Assembly (NCBI GenBank): GCA_900696495.1
Contig: CAADGI010000023.1
Span: 186,001-250,000, forward strand
DNA length: 64,000 nucleotides
DNA from: an uncultured Alphaproteobacteria bacterium
GTDB taxonomy: Bacteria; Pseudomonadota; Alphaproteobacteria; Micavibrionales; Micavibrionaceae
Direction: 5' to 3'
This document shows, one piece after another, positions 25,602-56,603 of this stretch. Both the position numbers and the translations under genes were made by a program. Each line of letters begins with the position of its first letter. The first letter of the stretch is position 1. Below the pieces are notes generated by a model. It saw nothing but the letters and a program-made list of their open reading frames with translations, did not search any database and was not told the origin of the DNA.

Positions 25602-26813
25602 TTACGCCGCCAGTTTCTGTTTTGACTCCATCGCCTCAAGCGCCTTGAGCAAAACGCTTTCATCCGCACCATCGACATAGGGCAGGGTGCTTAAAGCGCG
25701 TCGCCACTGCTTCGCGCCCGCCAGTTCATGATAAAGCCCGATCATATGCCGCGTGATGGATTTAACCGGCGTGTCGTATAATTTTCTCTGCTCGCGCGCG
25801 TAGCTGTGCATTTTCAGGACAATTGTTTCCCTGCTTAAACCCTCACCCGATCCTCGCTTGTCGCTCGGATCACCCTCTCCCTCAGGGAGAGGGAGGCGAG
25901 GCAACGCCGAGCGGGGTGAGGGGTTACGGCGGAAAATTTCTTTTTCAATCTGTGTGAGGAACCACGGGTTCTGGTACGCCTCGCGGCCGATCATCGCGCC
26001 GTCCAAAAAGTTGTCATTCCGGCGTAAGCCGGAATCGGGTTGGGTTTGGGGCATAAGATTCCCCGATCCCGGCTTTCGCCGGGATGACAATGAAGGAGAG
26101 ATTGCTTCTTTTATCTGTTCAATCGTCGTCAGTCCGCCATTCAGAATTATCCGCAAGTGTGGGTATTTCTCTTTAATTTTACGCACACGCTCATAATCGA
26201 GCGGCGGCACTTCGCGGTTTTCCTTCGGCGACAAACCTTTGAGCCACGCCTTGCGCGCATGGATGACAAAAGTTTTGCACCCTCTATCCGCAATTTCGCC
26301 CACAAATTTATCCAGGAATTCAAAACTGTCCTCGTCGTCGATGCCGATCCGGCATTTGACGGTGACGGGAATATCCACGGCCTTCACCATCGCCTCGACG
26401 CATTCGGCAACGTGCGAAGGCTCGCGCATCAAACACGCGCCGAAACGCCCCGACTGCACGCGGTCGGACGGGCACCCGCAATTGAGATTGATCTCGTCAT
26501 AACCCGCATTTTCCCCGGCCTCGGCGCCGAAGGCCAGGTCTGCCGCGTCCGACCCGCCGAGCTGCAGGGCGATCGGGTGCTGGGTCTGATCGAAACGCAG
26601 GAAACGGTCCTTGTCGCCGTGTAATATGGCGCCGGTCGTCACCATCTCGGTGTAAAGCTTCACACTCGGCGACAGCAGCCGGTGGAAATACCGGCAATGG
26701 CGGTCGGTCCAGTCCATCATCGGCGCGACGGAAATTTCTGGCATGGAAATTGTAGAGGAAGTTGACGCCAAAGGGCTCTTAGAGTCTTGCATGGCCGGTT
26801 TTTTAACATACAA
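25602..26813 (-). CDS. dusA: tRNA-dihydrouridine synthase A with two in-frame repeat insertions
   Basis: DusA reduces uridines in the tRNA D-loop using FMN. The family core is clear: SVAPMMDWTDRHCRYFHRL, LNCGCPSDRVQSGRFGACLM with the catalytic cysteine, VKCRIGIDD, IHARKAWLKGLSPKENREVPPL, and ILNGG..LDGAMIGREAYQNPW. At 403 residues it is longer than the usual 330-350 because two repeats are translated: family D (26013-26088) between QIKEA and LDGAM, and family A (25840-25923) after EIFRR. The start could be 26813, 26792 or 26744; none has a strong ribosome site. Confidence 0.9.
   Translation of the reverse strand: MYVKKPAMQDSKSPLASTSSTISMPEISVAPMMDWTDRHCRYFHRLLSPSVKLYTEMVTTGAILHGDKDRFLRFDQTQHPIALQLGGSDAADLAFGAEAGENAGYDEINLNCGCPSDRVQSGRFGACLMREPSHVAECVEAMVKAVDIPVTVKCRIGIDDEDSFEFLDKFVGEIADRGCKTFVIHARKAWLKGLSPKENREVPPLDYERVRKIKEKYPHLRIILNGGLTTIEQIKEAISPSLSSRRKPGSGNLMPQTQPDSGLRRNDNFLDGAMIGREAYQNPWFLTQIEKEIFRRNPSPRSALPRLPLPEGEGDPSDKRGSGEGLSRETIVLKMHSYAREQRKLYDTPVKSITRHMIGLYHELAGAKQWRRALSTLPYVDGADESVLLKALEAMESKQKLAA
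25840..25923. repeat. Palindromic repeat, family A, inside dusA
   Basis: CCCTCACCCGATCCTCGCTTG with the CCCTCTCCCT/AGGGAGAGGG hairpin and a closing GCGGGGTGAGGG. It has the same layout as 1041-1120, including the TCGCTCGGA segment. It is translated in frame on the minus strand (about residues 297-325 of DusA). Confidence 0.9.
26013..26088. repeat. Palindromic repeat, family D, inside dusA
   Basis: GTCATTCCGGCGTAAGCCGGAA pairs with CCCGGCTTTCGCCGGGATGAC around a CGGGTTGGG...CCCCGATCC inner pair. It is translated in frame and inserts about 27 residues into the TIM-barrel part of DusA. Confidence 0.9.
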
Positions 26814-31144: not shown

Positions 31145-31153
31145 ATTTTTATC

Positions 31154-31250
31154 GTCATTCCTGCGAAGGCAGGAATCCATGGAACGACTTGGGATAATAG
31201 TCGCTTTTTGAACAAACGGATGAATGGATCCCAGCCTTCGCTGGGATGAC
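31154..31250. repeat. Palindromic repeat, family D, between fabI and the GDPD gene
   Basis: GTCATTCCTGCGAAGGCAGGAATCCAT pairs with ATGGATCCCAGCCTTCGCTGGGATGAC, with a less conserved middle. It lies between two convergent genes and may act as a bidirectional barrier. Confidence 0.9.
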
Positions 31251-31263
31251 GGTGTCTCCCACA

Positions 31264-32013
31264 TTAATGCACCTTCAAAATCGCGTCCGTCAGCACATCC
31301 GGCGCGTCGGTGAAAAATCCATCCACGCCCCAGCCCTGTAAAATCCGTGCCCGGTCGGGATCGTTGATTGTGTAGGCGAGAATTGGCTTCTCCAGATCCA
31401 GCAATTCATCAATTTGTTCTCGCACGACCTTATTGCCGTTAACGTTGAACGTTGAAACGTCGAGATATTCCGCCAGTTCCCTCCAGTTCTCCGGCCATTC
31501 CTCGGGCAATAAAAATCCGCGGTGCCAGTCGCCCGCCATGTCGAGCGCCGTTTCCATCGACACATGCGAAAAGCTGGAAATCAGCAATCGGTCATGGTCG
31601 TCCCAGATTTGCGAAAGAATATCGAGCGCCGCTTCCGCCGTTTCCTTTTCACGGCCCGGGCAGGGCTTGATTTCAAGGTTGAGACCGAGCCCGTGCCCGA
31701 TCACGACTTCGAGCGCCTCCTCGAGCGTGGGGATTTTTATCCCTGCAAATGAATCCGCGAACCAGCTCCCGGCCTCGAGCGCCCGGATTTCATCCAGCGT
31801 ACATTCAGCCACCGGGCGGTCACCGCCATTCGTGGTGCGCTCCAGCGTGTCGTCGTGAAACAAAATCGGCACCTGGTCCTTCGTCAGCTTGACGTCGAAC
31901 TCCACCCACTCGACGCCCATATCGGCGGCGGTGTGAATCCCTTCCAGCGTGTTCTCGGGGGCGTATGCCGCCGCGCCGCGGTGGCCGATGATTTTGGAAA
32001 ATTTTAATGTCAT
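31264..32013 (-). CDS. ugpQ: Glycerophosphodiester phosphodiesterase
   Basis: A 249-residue cytosolic enzyme that hydrolyses glycerophosphodiesters to glycerol-3-phosphate and an alcohol. The metal-binding residues are in IIGHRGAAAYAPENT, VEFDVKLTKDQVPILFHDD and LNLEIKPCPG. The C-terminal VDGFFTDAPDVL is also typical. No signal peptide is present, unlike GlpQ. It stands alone on the minus strand between a family D repeat and a repeat-rich spacer. The symbol follows the cytosolic short family. Confidence 0.93.
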   Translation of the reverse strand: MTLKFSKIIGHRGAAAYAPENTLEGIHTAADMGVEWVEFDVKLTKDQVPILFHDDTLERTTNGGDRPVAECTLDEIRALEAGSWFADSFAGIKIPTLEEALEVVIGHGLGLNLEIKPCPGREKETAEAALDILSQIWDDHDRLLISSFSHVSMETALDMAGDWHRGFLLPEEWPENWRELAEYLDVSTFNVNGNKVVREQIDELLDLEKPILAYTINDPDRARILQGWGVDGFFTDAPDVLTDAILKVH

Positions 32014-32206: not shown

Positions 32207-32319
32207 TCCCTCACCCTAACCCTCTCCCTTCAGGGAGAGGGGACGACAAAAGAACCGTTTTAATTTTCCTCTTCCTTCAGGGAGAGGAAGGGGCCCGCCG
32301 CAGGCGGGAAGGTGAGGGA
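32207..32319. repeat. Palindromic repeat, family A, left copy flanking DUF559
   Basis: A 113-base element beginning TCCCTCACCCTAA and ending AAGGTGAGGGA, with two internal hairpins (CCCTCTCCCTTCAGGGAGAGGG and CTCTTCCTTCAGGGAGAGGAAG). It is in the same orientation as the 112-base copy at 32651-32762. The stop codon and last 20 residues or so of DUF559 are inside it. Confidence 0.92.
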
Positions 32320-32649
32320 CAGGTTTTCTGCGATAACTTTTAAAACGCCCTCCGTATTCTGAAGCACATCATTGTTCCAGAAACGAATAACCTTGTAGCC
32401 CTTACTCTCAAGAAAGCGCGTGCGGTTTTCATCATAAGTTATCGCAGGGCCTTCGTTATGCTGCCCGCCATCGAGTTCGATGACCAGTTTCCGGTCGCGG
32501 CATAAAAAATCGACATAATAGGGATAGACAGGGTACTGCCTGTAAAATTTGAAGCCGCCAAGCTGGCGGCTTCGTAAGTGGTTCCAAAGTTTCTTTTCTG
32601 CGCCGGTTTGATTACGGCGGAGGCGTCTGGCTGTCGAAGTTAGTGTCAT
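32260..32649 (-). CDS. DUF559-domain endonuclease-like protein
   Basis: A 129-residue protein of the DUF559 family, a PD-(D/E)xK nuclease fold related to Vsr. It opens TARRLRRNQTGAEKKLWNHLR, has FYRQYPVYPYYVDFLC (first acidic residue) and KLVIELDGGQHNE (E and D/Q of the active site). The ATG at 32649 is preceded on the minus strand by GTGAGGGAC, which lies inside the right-hand repeat. The C-terminus (about FPPAAGPFLSLKEEEN) is encoded by the left-hand repeat. The nuclease core alone is unique sequence. This is a candidate repeat-associated mobile unit. Confidence 0.88.
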   Translation of the reverse strand: MTLTSTARRLRRNQTGAEKKLWNHLRSRQLGGFKFYRQYPVYPYYVDFLCRDRKLVIELDGGQHNEGPAITYDENRTRFLESKGYKVIRFWNNDVLQNTEGVLKVIAENLSLTFPPAAGPFLSLKEEEN

Positions 32650-32650
32650 G

Positions 32651-32762
32651 TCCCTCACCCTAGCCCTCTCCCTAAAGGGAGAGGGAATAAAAAAGCACTT
32701 TTAAAGCCCCTCTCCCTTCAGGGAGAGGGAGGGGCCCATGCGAAGCATGGGAAGGTGAGGGA
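32651..32762. repeat. Palindromic repeat, family A, right copy flanking DUF559
   Basis: A 112-base direct copy of 32207-32319: TCCCTCACCCTAG start, AAGGTGAGGGA end and two hairpins (CCCTCTCCCTAAAGGGAGAGGG; CCTCTCCCTTCAGGGAGAGG). It supplies the ribosome-binding site of the DUF559 gene and lies five bases beyond the pnp stop, where it could also end pnp transcription. Confidence 0.92.
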
Positions 32763-32767
32763 TAATC

Positions 32768-34975
32768 TTAACCCCGGTTCCTGCGCGGGCCGCGATCGCG
32801 GTCGCGTCCACGGTCACGGTCGCCGCCTTCGCGGCGGGGGCGCGGCGCGGAAACTTCCTCGGGCGAGGGGAGTTCGCCGATGATCTCGCCGTTCTCTTGG
32901 TTGACGCGTTTCATCGACAGTTTCACCTTGCCGCGGTCATCCATGCCGAGCACGACGACTTTCACCTGGTCGCCTTCATTGACGACATCGGTGGTCTGCG
33001 CGACGCGGGTGTCGGCGAGTTCGGAGATGTGAACGAGGCCATCCTTCGCGCCCATGAAATTGACGAACGCGCCGAATTCCATGGTTTTCACGACCTTGCC
33101 GCTATAGACCTTGCCGGCCTCGGGTTCGTCGGTGATGCCCTTGATCATGTTGACGGCTTTCTCGATGGAATCCGCGTTGATGGCGGCGACTTTGATCGTT
33201 CCGTCATCATCGATATCCACTTTCGCGCCGGACACTTCGCAGATTTCGCGAATGACCTTGCCACCAGTGCCGATAACCTCGCGGATTTTATCCGTCGAGA
33301 TTTTCAGCGTGACGATCTGCGGTGCGAACTTCGAGAGCTCGCCGCGCGCTTCGGTCAGGGCCTTGTTCATTTCGCCGAGAATATGCAGGCGGCCTTGTTT
33401 CGCCTGTTCGACGGCGATCTTCATGATTTCCTCGGTGATCGAGGTGATCTTGATGTCCATCTGCAGGGCGGTAATGCCTTGCTCGGTTCCCGCGACCTTG
33501 AAGTCCATGTCGCCGAGATGGTCTTCATCGCCGAGAATGTCGGACAGGACGGCGAATTCATTGCCTTCCTTGATGAGGCCCATGGCGATACCGGCCACCG
33601 GCGCTTTCAGGGGCGCGCCTGCATCCATCAGGGCGAGGGAGGTGCCGCAGACGGTCGCCATCGAGGAGGAACCGTTCGATTCCGTGATCTCGGAGACCAC
33701 GCGCATCGTGTAGGGGAAATCCTCTACCGGCGGCAGGAGCGGGTTGATCGCGCGCCATGCCAGCTTGCCGTGACCGATTTCACGGCGGCCCGGTGCGCCC
33801 ATGCGTCCGGCTTCACCGACCGAGTATGGCGGGAAGTTGTAGTGAAGCATGAAGCGCTGCTTGTATTCGCCTTCCAGCGCGTCGATGATCTGTTCATCCT
33901 GGCCGGTGCCGAGCGTGGTGACCACGAGGGCCTGCGTCTCGCCGCGCGTAAATAGCGCGGAGCCGTGCGTACGGGGCAGGACGCCGGTTTCGGCAACGAT
34001 CGGGCGGACGGTTTTCGTGTCGCGCTGATCGATGCGGCGGCCGGTTTTCAGGATATTGCCGCGAACGACATCGGCCTCGAGTTCCTTGAACTTGCCGACG
34101 ATCGTGTTGTCGTTGATTTCATCAGACTTGAACTGCTCGATCGCTTTTTTCTTGGCGGCATCGACCGCGTCGCGGCGCTCCGCCTTGTTGACGATTGCAT
34201 AGGCATCGCGCACTTCCTTCTCGTAATTCGACTTGATGTCGGCAACGAGTTTCTTGATGTGGGCGGGCGCCTCGGGGATGTCCCACGGCTCTTTCGCGCA
34301 CATTTCAGCAAGATCGATAATGCCGTCGATGACGGGCTGGAACGCTTTCCAGCCGCGCATGACCGCGTCCAGCATGACCTCCTCCGAAAGCTCTTTCGCC
34401 TCGGATTCAACCATCAGGACGCCTTCTTTCGTTCCGGCGACAACCAGATCCAGCGAGCTTTCCTTCATTTCCGACATGGTCGGGTTGATGGCGAGCTGGC
34501 CGTTGATGAAGCCGACGCGTGCGCCGCCGATCGGGCCCATGAACGGGATGCCCGAGATCGTCAGGGCCGCGGAGCAGCCGACGAGCGCGACCATGTCCGG
34601 GTCGTTTTCGAGGTCGTGGGAAACGACCGTAGCGATCACCTGCACTTCGTTGAAGAAATCCTTCGGGAACAGCGGGCGGATCGGGCGGTCGATCAGGCGG
34701 GAGGTCAGCGTCTCTTTTTCGGAGGGACGCGCTTCGCGCTTGAAGAAGCCGCCGGGGATTTTACCGGCTGCGTAGGTCTTTTCCTGATAGTGAACGGTAA
34801 GGGGGAAGAAATCCTGGCCTTCCTTGACGCTTTTCGCGCCGACGACAGTGCAGAGCACCGTGGTTTCGCCCATCGTCGCCATGACGGCGGCATCGGCCTG
34901 GCGGGCGATTTTGCCGGTTTCGAGGATGATGGTCTTACCTGCGAAATCGATTTCTTTTCTGAATAGATTAAACAT
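32768..34975 (-). CDS. pnp: Polyribonucleotide nucleotidyltransferase
   Basis: PNPase is a phosphorolytic 3'-5' exoribonuclease of the degradosome. The 735-residue protein has two RNase PH domains ([18 protein letters not shown] in the first; the active region [20 protein letters not shown] in the second), a KH domain ([15 protein letters not shown]) and an S1 domain ([28 protein letters not shown]), then an Arg/Asp/Gly tail. The frame opens at 35098, but the ATG at 34975 with AAGGAA upstream gives the standard start. Unlike the common rpsO-pnp pairing, about 2 kb with gpmA and others separates it from rpsO. Confidence 0.97.
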
Positions 34976-34994
34976 TCGTTTTATTTCCTTATAT

Positions 34995-35115
34995 GAATTA
35001 AACCCCACCCGTACCTTTACGGGAGGTGATTGTATGTTCGGTGGGAGCGGGGAACTGGTTCCGGGCGGACAGTGGAAACCACGAAGCCTATTTTTCAATT
35101 AGGGGTGGGTTCAAC
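34995..35115 (-). promoter_or_regulatory. Structured leader or palindromic element upstream of pnp
   Basis: Outer arms AACCCCACCC and GGGGTGGGTT enclose three short hairpins, CCCGTA-CCTT-TACGGG, GGAAC-TG-GTTCC and GTGG-AAA-CCAC. Read on the minus strand it forms the pnp 5' region. It could be an RNA leader for pnp autoregulation, as known in enterobacteria, or another dispersed repeat. The sequence cannot decide. Confidence 0.5.
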
Positions 35116-56453: not shown

Positions 56454-56603
56454 TCCTCTCCCTTCAGGGAGAGGGAGGGCCCCGCGCCGGAGGCGTGGGA
56501 GGGTGAGGGAATGTTCCGGTCTACGGTAATCCCTCACCAAGATTTTCTAAGCCTCACTTCGTTCGGTTAAGAAAATCTATCCTCTCCCTGAAGGGAGAGG
56601 AAG
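56454..56603. repeat. Double family A palindromic repeat
   Basis: One unit (56454-56510: TCCTCTCCCTTCAGGGAGAGGGAGGGCC to GGGTGAGGGA) and a second, reversed unit (56530-56603: TCCCTCACC to TCCTCTCCCTGAAGGGAGAGGA) stand end to end. The second includes an unusual TTTTCTTAACCGAACG-type hairpin. Both lie between the coiled-coil gene and the HAD gene. Confidence 0.88.

Follow-up and report, generated by a model that had tools for sequence, protein, structure and literature searches.

RESULTS

A DUF559 gene beside pnp lies between two palindromic repeats

The 64,000-nt stretch of DNA analyzed here (the window) comes from a genome of 2.04 Mb in 25 contigs. Between two genes that we take, by eye, to be pnp (32768-35098, minus strand) and a glycerophosphodiesterase-like gene (31264-32013, minus strand) lies a short open reading frame (ORF) that matched the DUF559 profile (PF04480) with an E value of 1.1e-41 in a profile search. 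DUF559, or YcjD, is a common protein family of unknown function for which a structure has been solved. The features of the locus are as follows.

32260..32649, minus strand: DUF559 (PF04480) nuclease ORF, 129 aa (ATG at 32647-32649, TAA at 32260-32262)
32207..32319, no strand assigned: left BoxC-type repeat, 113 nt, on the 3′ side of the gene, with two core hairpins and CCCTCACC/GGTGAGGG feet
32651..32762, no strand assigned: right BoxC-type repeat, 112 nt, on the 5′ side of the gene, with two core hairpins
32651..32685, minus strand: gene-proximal predicted triplex unit (pyrimidine arm, loop, purine arm GGGAGAGGG, spacer, third strand GGGTGAGGG)
32652-32660, given on the plus strand: third strand of the gene-proximal unit
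32207..32241, no strand assigned: outer unit of the left copy (CCCTCACCC foot, spacer, CCCTCTCCC-loop-GGGAGAGGG hairpin)
32652..32656, minus strand: GAGGG Shine-Dalgarno-like sequence, from the foot of the right repeat

Both repeats start with TCCCTCACC and finish with GGTGAGGGA. They are direct repeats of each other, with 84%, 80%, and 100% identity over three aligned blocks, and each copy is itself palindromic, with two core hairpins. Repeat alignment and the PF04480 match thereby confirmed the original prediction of a DUF559 ORF between two same-direction palindromes of 112 to 113 nt with matching ends. The coordinates agree equally with its placement of the translation signals: the ATG comes after GGGTGAGGGAC, which forms the foot of the right repeat, so that GAGGG falls within this copy, and the left copy contains the stop and the last ~20 codons. 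Folded as single-stranded DNA, the window copies gave z scores of −4.2 to −8.0 relative to shuffled sequences, and none of 200 shuffles folded equally well. The flanks of the ORF matched each other with a score of 110 in direct and 59 in inverted orientation, against a median of 16 for control ORFs (n = 877).

Three DUF559 matches were found in the window's genome at an E value of ≤0.001, all of them bracketed by palindromes. Copy 2 lies in frame within priA (an open frame of 902 codons) and copy 3 between fliQ and fliR. Copies 1 (the window ORF) and 2 have GGGAGAGGG with GGGTGAGGG, and the repeat of copy 3 has the variant core GGGAGGGGG with the foot GGGGGAGGG. Identity to the window protein is 50% and 49% for the other two proteins, and recent copying is not visible in this genome. 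Three more solo BoxC elements occur in the window, at about 1041-1121, 25840-25923, and 56455-56510, and have an extra small hairpin between core arm and foot. Two GTCATTCCTGCGAAGGCAGGAATCC-type palindromes lie at 31152-31256, downstream of a fabI-like gene; this type also adjoins some GIY-YIG genes elsewhere.

The repeat corresponds to BoxC and keeps a triplex geometry

Judged by sequence, the core and foot of the repeat are those of BoxC, also called the PIT element or TM intrastrand triplex motif, an identity that the original prediction had not recognized. The window repeat carries the BoxC hallmark, a hairpin (CCCTCTCC-loop-GGAGAGGG) followed by the G-rich third strand GGGTGAGGG, and the strict BoxC pattern occurred 11 times in the window's genome, compared with 0 times for the reversed control pattern. 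According to the available text of Holder et al. 2015 (PMC4666352), BoxC was described in E. coli in the 1990s, occurs in over 260 genomes, and is surrounded by genome instability in E. coli, where mobility genes were never found beside its sites; the E. coli version is reported to fold into a triplex in solution. DUF559 and YcjD are absent from the main text of that paper, and the accessible part of the open-license PMC literature yielded neither a link of DUF559 or YcjD to BoxC nor another enzyme for BoxC.

The purine-arm hairpin nearest the gene was extracted from each flank (236 of 316 flanks), giving 195 arm-tail pairs that were distinct and asymmetric. A purine-type intrastrand triplex requires a third strand that mirrors its purine arm. 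The mirror match was better than the direct match in 118 pairs, worse in 23, and tied in 54. The mean mirror match was 5.89 of 8; shuffles averaged 5.15, and none of 2,000 reached 5.89. Variant arms and third strands include GGGGAAGG with GGATGGGG, GGAGAGGA with AGGTGAGG, and GGAGGGGG with GGGGGAGG. A second duplex would not require a mirror match in asymmetric arms. These results indicate that the triplex geometry is conserved; triplex formation in the cell is a prediction from sequence.

Inverted BoxC-type units bracket DUF559 genes

DUF559 loci were gathered by HMM score or sequence similarity, independently of repeats, and the two 150-nt flanks of each were given an inverted-match score (threshold, ≥30). 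Every open frame of ≥300 nt, true gene or not, served as a control ORF. The set of relatives comprised the window and 48 strong loci, two of them from the window's genome; 47 of 115 genomes had a DUF559 match. The flank test left out L051 and L079 (contig edge), together with the control ORFs of L079. Inverted flanks were present at 32 of 47 DUF559 loci (30/44 without the three loci of the window's genome), compared with 5 of 877 control ORFs and 2 of 1,439 random windows from the same stretches. The 15 loci that scored below 30 count against pairing; L043, L070, L075, and L080 scored 15, near background. DUF559 matches occurred in 145 of the 398 genomes of a phylum sample, where 29 loci beyond those of the window's genome were scored. 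Thirteen of these passed, compared with 0 of 34 controls, and that only 13 did so also counts against pairing. Among the best 80 of 575 relatives from named genomes, two of which were left out of scoring, inverted flanks were found at 65 of 78 loci and at 3 of 597 controls. These best 80 are mainly from Proteobacteria and also from Desulfobacterota, Nitrospirota, Kapabacteria, Chloroflexota, Gastranaerophilales, and others. A Dadabacteria locus had a flank score of 21. The expectation that DUF559 relatives are associated with repeats was thus borne out among both the relatives (32/47 versus 5/877) and the best 80 (65/78 versus 3/597); a lack of repeats around DUF559 homologues was not what appeared.

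The strict BoxC core reached a density of 2.4 per kb in the 150 nt next to the domain and fell to about 0.02 per kb more than 1 kb away. At least one side carried the strict core in 71 of 156 loci and both sides in only 33, which counts against pairing. A loose BoxC-like motif stood on both sides of 39 of 47 DUF559 genes, 2 of 914 control ORFs, 0 of 30 GIY-YIG genes, and 0 of 30 PDDEXK_3 genes, the GIY-YIG flanks beginning at the stop codon and the DUF559 flanks at the domain end. Plain chance was rejected on the basis of control ORFs, random windows, and the distance profile; the proposal that any small nuclease gene carries BoxC was rejected by the two counts of 0/30.

DUF559 genes stand between inverted BoxC-type units, and the ribosome-binding site often comes from the foot of such a unit: in 66 of 156 loci, the repeat motif lies no more than 24 nt ahead of the chosen start. 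The open frame continues for more than 150 nt beyond the DUF559 domain in 42 of 156. A preference for same-direction insertion was not shown, both neighbors being on the DUF559 strand in only 64 of 149 loci. At ycjD, the DUF559 gene of E. coli MG1655, a decayed BoxC overlaps the 3′ end and a full BoxC lies about 200 bp downstream; strain KE47 has kept a complete BoxC at the ycjD stop codon.

Repeat subtype tracks nuclease clade, and gene and repeats co-occur

Core-subtype labels were placed on a tree of 156 DUF559 domains (L080 and L051 were dropped, and 22 rows were unlabeled). The labels changed 21 times on this tree, which rests on few columns, is weak at many of its forks, and contains near-copies that favor clustering; shuffled labels changed 33.3 times on average, and none of 500 shuffles was as low. 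One clade (support, 100/86) has a single subtype at three sites: between fliQ and fliR (L034), after pnp (L037 and L044), and after a peptidyl-prolyl-isomerase-like gene (L055). The pnp site, in turn, holds differing DUF559 and repeat lineages among genomes (the window, L037, L039, L040, and L044).

For co-occurrence, a DUF559 match from the phylum sample was called strong when its E value was below 1e-10 (110 of 145 matches), and one from the relatives when it was ≤2e-26 (36 of 47); weaker matches were treated as absent. Strict BoxC was present in 25 of 36 relatives with strong DUF559 and in 9 of 79 without it (P = 8e-10), and in 61 of 110 and 22 of 288 genomes, respectively, of the phylum sample (P = 2e-23); both P values ignore phylogeny, and the counts include BoxC copies adjoining DUF559 itself. 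At least five strict copies were found in 37 of 110 phylum genomes with DUF559, compared with 8 of 288 without. Those 8 of 398 genomes that have ≥5 strict copies and no strong DUF559 (among them G254 with 129, G414 with 98, and G313 with 66) count against pairing, as do the 49 of 110 DUF559 genomes that lack any strict-pattern BoxC.

Filled, repeat-only, and empty sites

The original prediction called for a comparison of empty and filled sites in close genomes. Within the window's genus, the window's genome (G000) is filled at priA site 1 and at the fliQ-fliR junction, both of which are empty in G001 and G002; at rpsP-rimM these two genomes are filled and G000 has a different palindrome. Yet another repeat lies at the pnp end in G002. 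In genus g3, three states occur at the fabB-fabI junction: G042 is empty, G004 has decayed BoxC-like hairpins and no gene, and G072 is filled. The pnp end of G003 carries two units in inverted orientation whose feet are 28 nt apart, resembling a pair without a gene. The comparison thus yielded filled, repeat-only, and empty states; because repeat-only sites exist, repeats and gene may also have arrived independently. Neither a target duplication nor a defined insertion boundary was seen in the empty/filled alignments, in which the flanks were too diverged.

DUF559 frames were fused to neighboring frames in 46 of 158 loci, ten of them in PriA (nine identified by motif and L061 by eye). In a comparison of 75 priA genes (106 genomes had a match), nine contained an in-frame DUF559 and one (G016) the translated repeat alone. 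An additional repeat lies at a second site in the priA genes of G045 and G057, and in a Gastranaerophilales locus (L313), thus outside the phylum of the Proteobacteria loci, DUF559 is in frame within PriA at this second site, just before the Walker A motif. At L086, the priA gene of G063, the PriA linker that takes DUF559 elsewhere carries an in-frame insert of another repeat family, translated as SLRAQRSNLEM. Specificity for PriA as a target is weakened by this other palindrome family and by the second PriA site, and for the same two reasons the PriA linker is probably merely permissive. In L236 and L242, DUF559 is in frame within what we take to be a type I restriction HsdM gene; the DUF559 protein of Mariprofundus erugo is identical to one in another genome (L236/L242).

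In E. coli, 2,093 of 5,426 genomes had no place covering 80% of the fabI-ycjD stretch, which counts against pairing. This stretch did not serve as a clean empty site: A16 (L326, fabI-sapF without ycjD) has a TetR-RND efflux-MFS cluster there, and the site in a second E. coli strain begins the same way. In Legionella, repeated transposase-DUF559 segments are described as recombination hotspots in the available text of PMC12308824.

DUF559 resembles Vsr and EDxHD homing endonucleases

Counting residues from 32646, where the HMM match begins, we found E17, D46, D59, H63, and D72 conserved in 47, 49, 49, 49, and 48 of 49 domains, respectively. Five Vsr residues have been mapped onto Caulobacter VsrA in the accessible portion of PMC12907096, and the DUF559 pentad matches these Vsr/VsrA catalytic residues by spacing. 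YcjD was assigned to the PD-(D/E)XK superfamily in 2005, with Vsr as a relative (PMC1189080, in part), and one DUF559 gene is classed as an EDxHD homing endonuclease in the available text of PMC9403480. The predicted DUF559 structure had a mean pLDDT of 89 and matched NGO0050 (3hrl; Z = 16.2), I-Bth0305I (3r3p; Z = 11.8), and Vsr (1cw0; Z = 10.4), so that in this model the nearest functionally named fold relative would be the homing endonuclease I-Bth0305I.

We compared 12 close pairs of DUF559 genes, 2 of which lacked a dN/dS ratio. In 9 of the 10 measurable pairs the ratio was 0.05 to 0.20, and in one very close pair it was 0.51, values that point to purifying selection on DUF559 genes. L065 and L069 have kept the gene at one site despite a dS of 1.46. 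DUF559 was found in 46 of 72,556 plasmid records, several of them chromosome-sized, and in 3 of 50,697 phage records. This rarity counts against pairing, as do the vertical retention of the genes, the ~50% identity among the three copies of the window's genome, and the lack of a visible target duplication or insertion boundary.

Other nuclease genes have palindromes of their own

One of the five control ORFs that matched in the flank test is a PDDEXK_3 gene (PF13366; E value of 9.5e-38) of the window's genome (G000:C5:41326-41676). It is bracketed by CACGAAG-type palindromes of the form ACCACGAAGACACGAAG.../...CTTCGTGTCTTCGTGGT and variants. We gathered 30 PDDEXK_3 loci (L375 to L404) from 58 relatives, 20 of which had a match, and compared 200 nt upstream with 150 nt downstream against a control set of their own. 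Inverted flanks scoring ≥30 were present at 22 of the 30 loci and at 7 of 914 controls measured alike; CACGAAG-like motifs stood on both sides of 15 of 30 loci and 4 of 914 controls. Among single-domain GIY-YIG genes, 7 of 30 (L342, L345, L346, L348, L349, L351, and L353) were bracketed by other palindromes (GTCATTCC..GGAATC, TCATTGCGAG, and similar). The BoxC-DUF559 pair may be one of several such nuclease-palindrome pairs.

DISCUSSION

We interpret DUF559 nucleases and BoxC repeats as one cognate system in which the nuclease acts on the folded repeat, and we put the probability of this reading at roughly 60%. By analogy, the arrangement is best read as a REP/RAYT-like pairing built on an unrelated nuclease. 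An EDxHD/Vsr-type nuclease would recognize the folded repeat, a hairpin with its third strand, when it is single-stranded during replication and would nick or cut there; host repair would then copy the repeat, or repeat-gene-repeat, from another site. One resident nuclease could in this way sustain non-autonomous repeats as a family, the role proposed for RAYTs with respect to REPs. Cleavage would be by metal-dependent hydrolysis, with no covalent strand transfer of the RAYT kind: since EDxHD enzymes use a metal-bound water (PMC3943268, in part), a covalent intermediate is not expected. Because the foot doubles as a ribosome-binding site, repeat and gene would be coupled, and since the repeats can be translated and carry ribosome-binding sites with them, insertions would be tolerated at operon junctions and even in frame in genes such as priA.

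Somewhat short of even odds, and offered tentatively, is the wider proposal that DUF559 is the first dedicated nuclease for intrastrand DNA triplexes and one of a larger class of bare orphan nucleases that keep their own palindromes. DUF559 would then read the hairpin and mirror third strand and drive both the spreading of BoxC and its turnover, from Proteobacteria to Gastranaerophilales, Chloroflexota, and Nitrospirota. That PDDEXK_3 genes show palindromes of their own makes this proposal likelier.

The main rival to a cognate system is homing into BoxC that is spread by another agent. DUF559 would be a homing-type gene, with BoxC as its target and homology arms, a landing pad and not its product; a solo BoxC would be cut, and repair from a gene-bearing copy would turn solo into filled sites. 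The fold similarity to I-Bth0305I, the EDxHD homing endonuclease label given to one DUF559 gene, the repeat-only and filled states at fabB-fabI, the G003 pnp end, and the BoxC-rich genomes without DUF559 all suit this account. The agreement of subtype with clade, the co-occurrence, and the presence of units facing both ways are, however, explained more simply by a nuclease that governs the repeats, and the accessible open-license literature offers no other BoxC enzyme; we regard homing as rather unlikely. It is improbable that BoxC is simply an expression and insertion adaptor on which the enzyme does not act, nuclease genes surviving best where BoxC, with its ribosome-binding site and tolerated linker, is already present. 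The motifs just upstream of starts, the frames running past the domain, and the fused frames would follow from such a role, but it leaves unexplained the bracketing on both sides, the subtype-clade agreement, and the third-strand covariation, and in the same genome group neither GIY-YIG nor PDDEXK_3 genes use BoxC.

Two further accounts have little to recommend them. Were DUF559 a Vsr-type mismatch-repair nuclease, the role proposed for Caulobacter VsrA in the available text of PMC12907096, its fold and catalytic pentad would be as observed, but repeats that are incidental cannot yield 65 of 78 loci versus 3 of 597 controls or the agreement with the tree; we give this account very little weight, and a repair role alongside a repeat role is possible. 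An ordinary composite transposon or cassette, a 556-bp unit moving between terminal repeats, would have the direct 112-nt ends and the filled and empty sites seen here. Such an element is weakened by the ~50% identity of the three copies in the window's genome, the rarity of DUF559 on plasmids and phages, purifying selection, and the retention at one site in L065 and L069, and no target duplication was seen in the diverged flanks; it is correspondingly very improbable.

If DUF559 and BoxC form a cognate system, both acquire a testable role in E. coli, and a natural protein that handles DNA triplexes is suggested. The tie would also account for translated repeat linkers and for nuclease inserts in core proteins such as PriA. 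Together with the PDDEXK_3 and GIY-YIG cases, it hints that the REP/RAYT logic arose perhaps several times on unrelated nucleases.

Among known systems, REP/BIME elements with TnpA-REP (RAYT) share with the DUF559-BoxC pair a dedicated resident nuclease gene with cognate palindromic repeats. REPs are small palindromes with a conserved foot beside the hairpin that occur as inverted pairs and solo copies, and BoxC is alike in this. The REP hairpin is of the GTAG type, whereas BoxC is marked by its mirror third strand. RAYT belongs to the HUH tyrosine enzymes and works through a covalent 5′-phosphotyrosine link (PMC8266576, in part), whereas DUF559 is an EDxHD/PD-(D/E)XK metal nuclease. The REP/RAYT analogy of the original prediction therefore stands as to a nuclease gene flanked by cognate palindromes and falls as to enzyme class (PF04480 with an EDxHD fold, not HUH): the pair would work like REP/RAYT, yet it is not a member of that group. 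The BoxC/PIT/TM motif itself (PMC4666352) has the same core and third strand and occurs in E. coli and many genomes; in the available text of that paper no mobility gene lies near the E. coli sites, whereas here DUF559 is tied to the repeat. I-Bth0305I shares the EDxHD pentad and, in the predicted model, the catalytic fold (Foldseek E value of 2.1e-5; VIA Z = 11.8, root mean square deviation [rmsd] of 2.6 over 90). It is named a mobile intron protein and has a long multi-domain DNA-binding part (PMC3943268, in part), whereas DUF559 is a bare, repeat-flanked domain. Vsr and Caulobacter VsrA have the catalytic residues and, again by the model, the fold (1cw0; Z = 10.4, rmsd of 2.1 over 96), the difference being that DUF559 is tied to repeats. 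Rickettsia palindromic elements, finally, are likewise translated in frame within genes; they have another sequence, and the available text of PMC10969869 names no nuclease for them, whereas the repeats described here come with DUF559.
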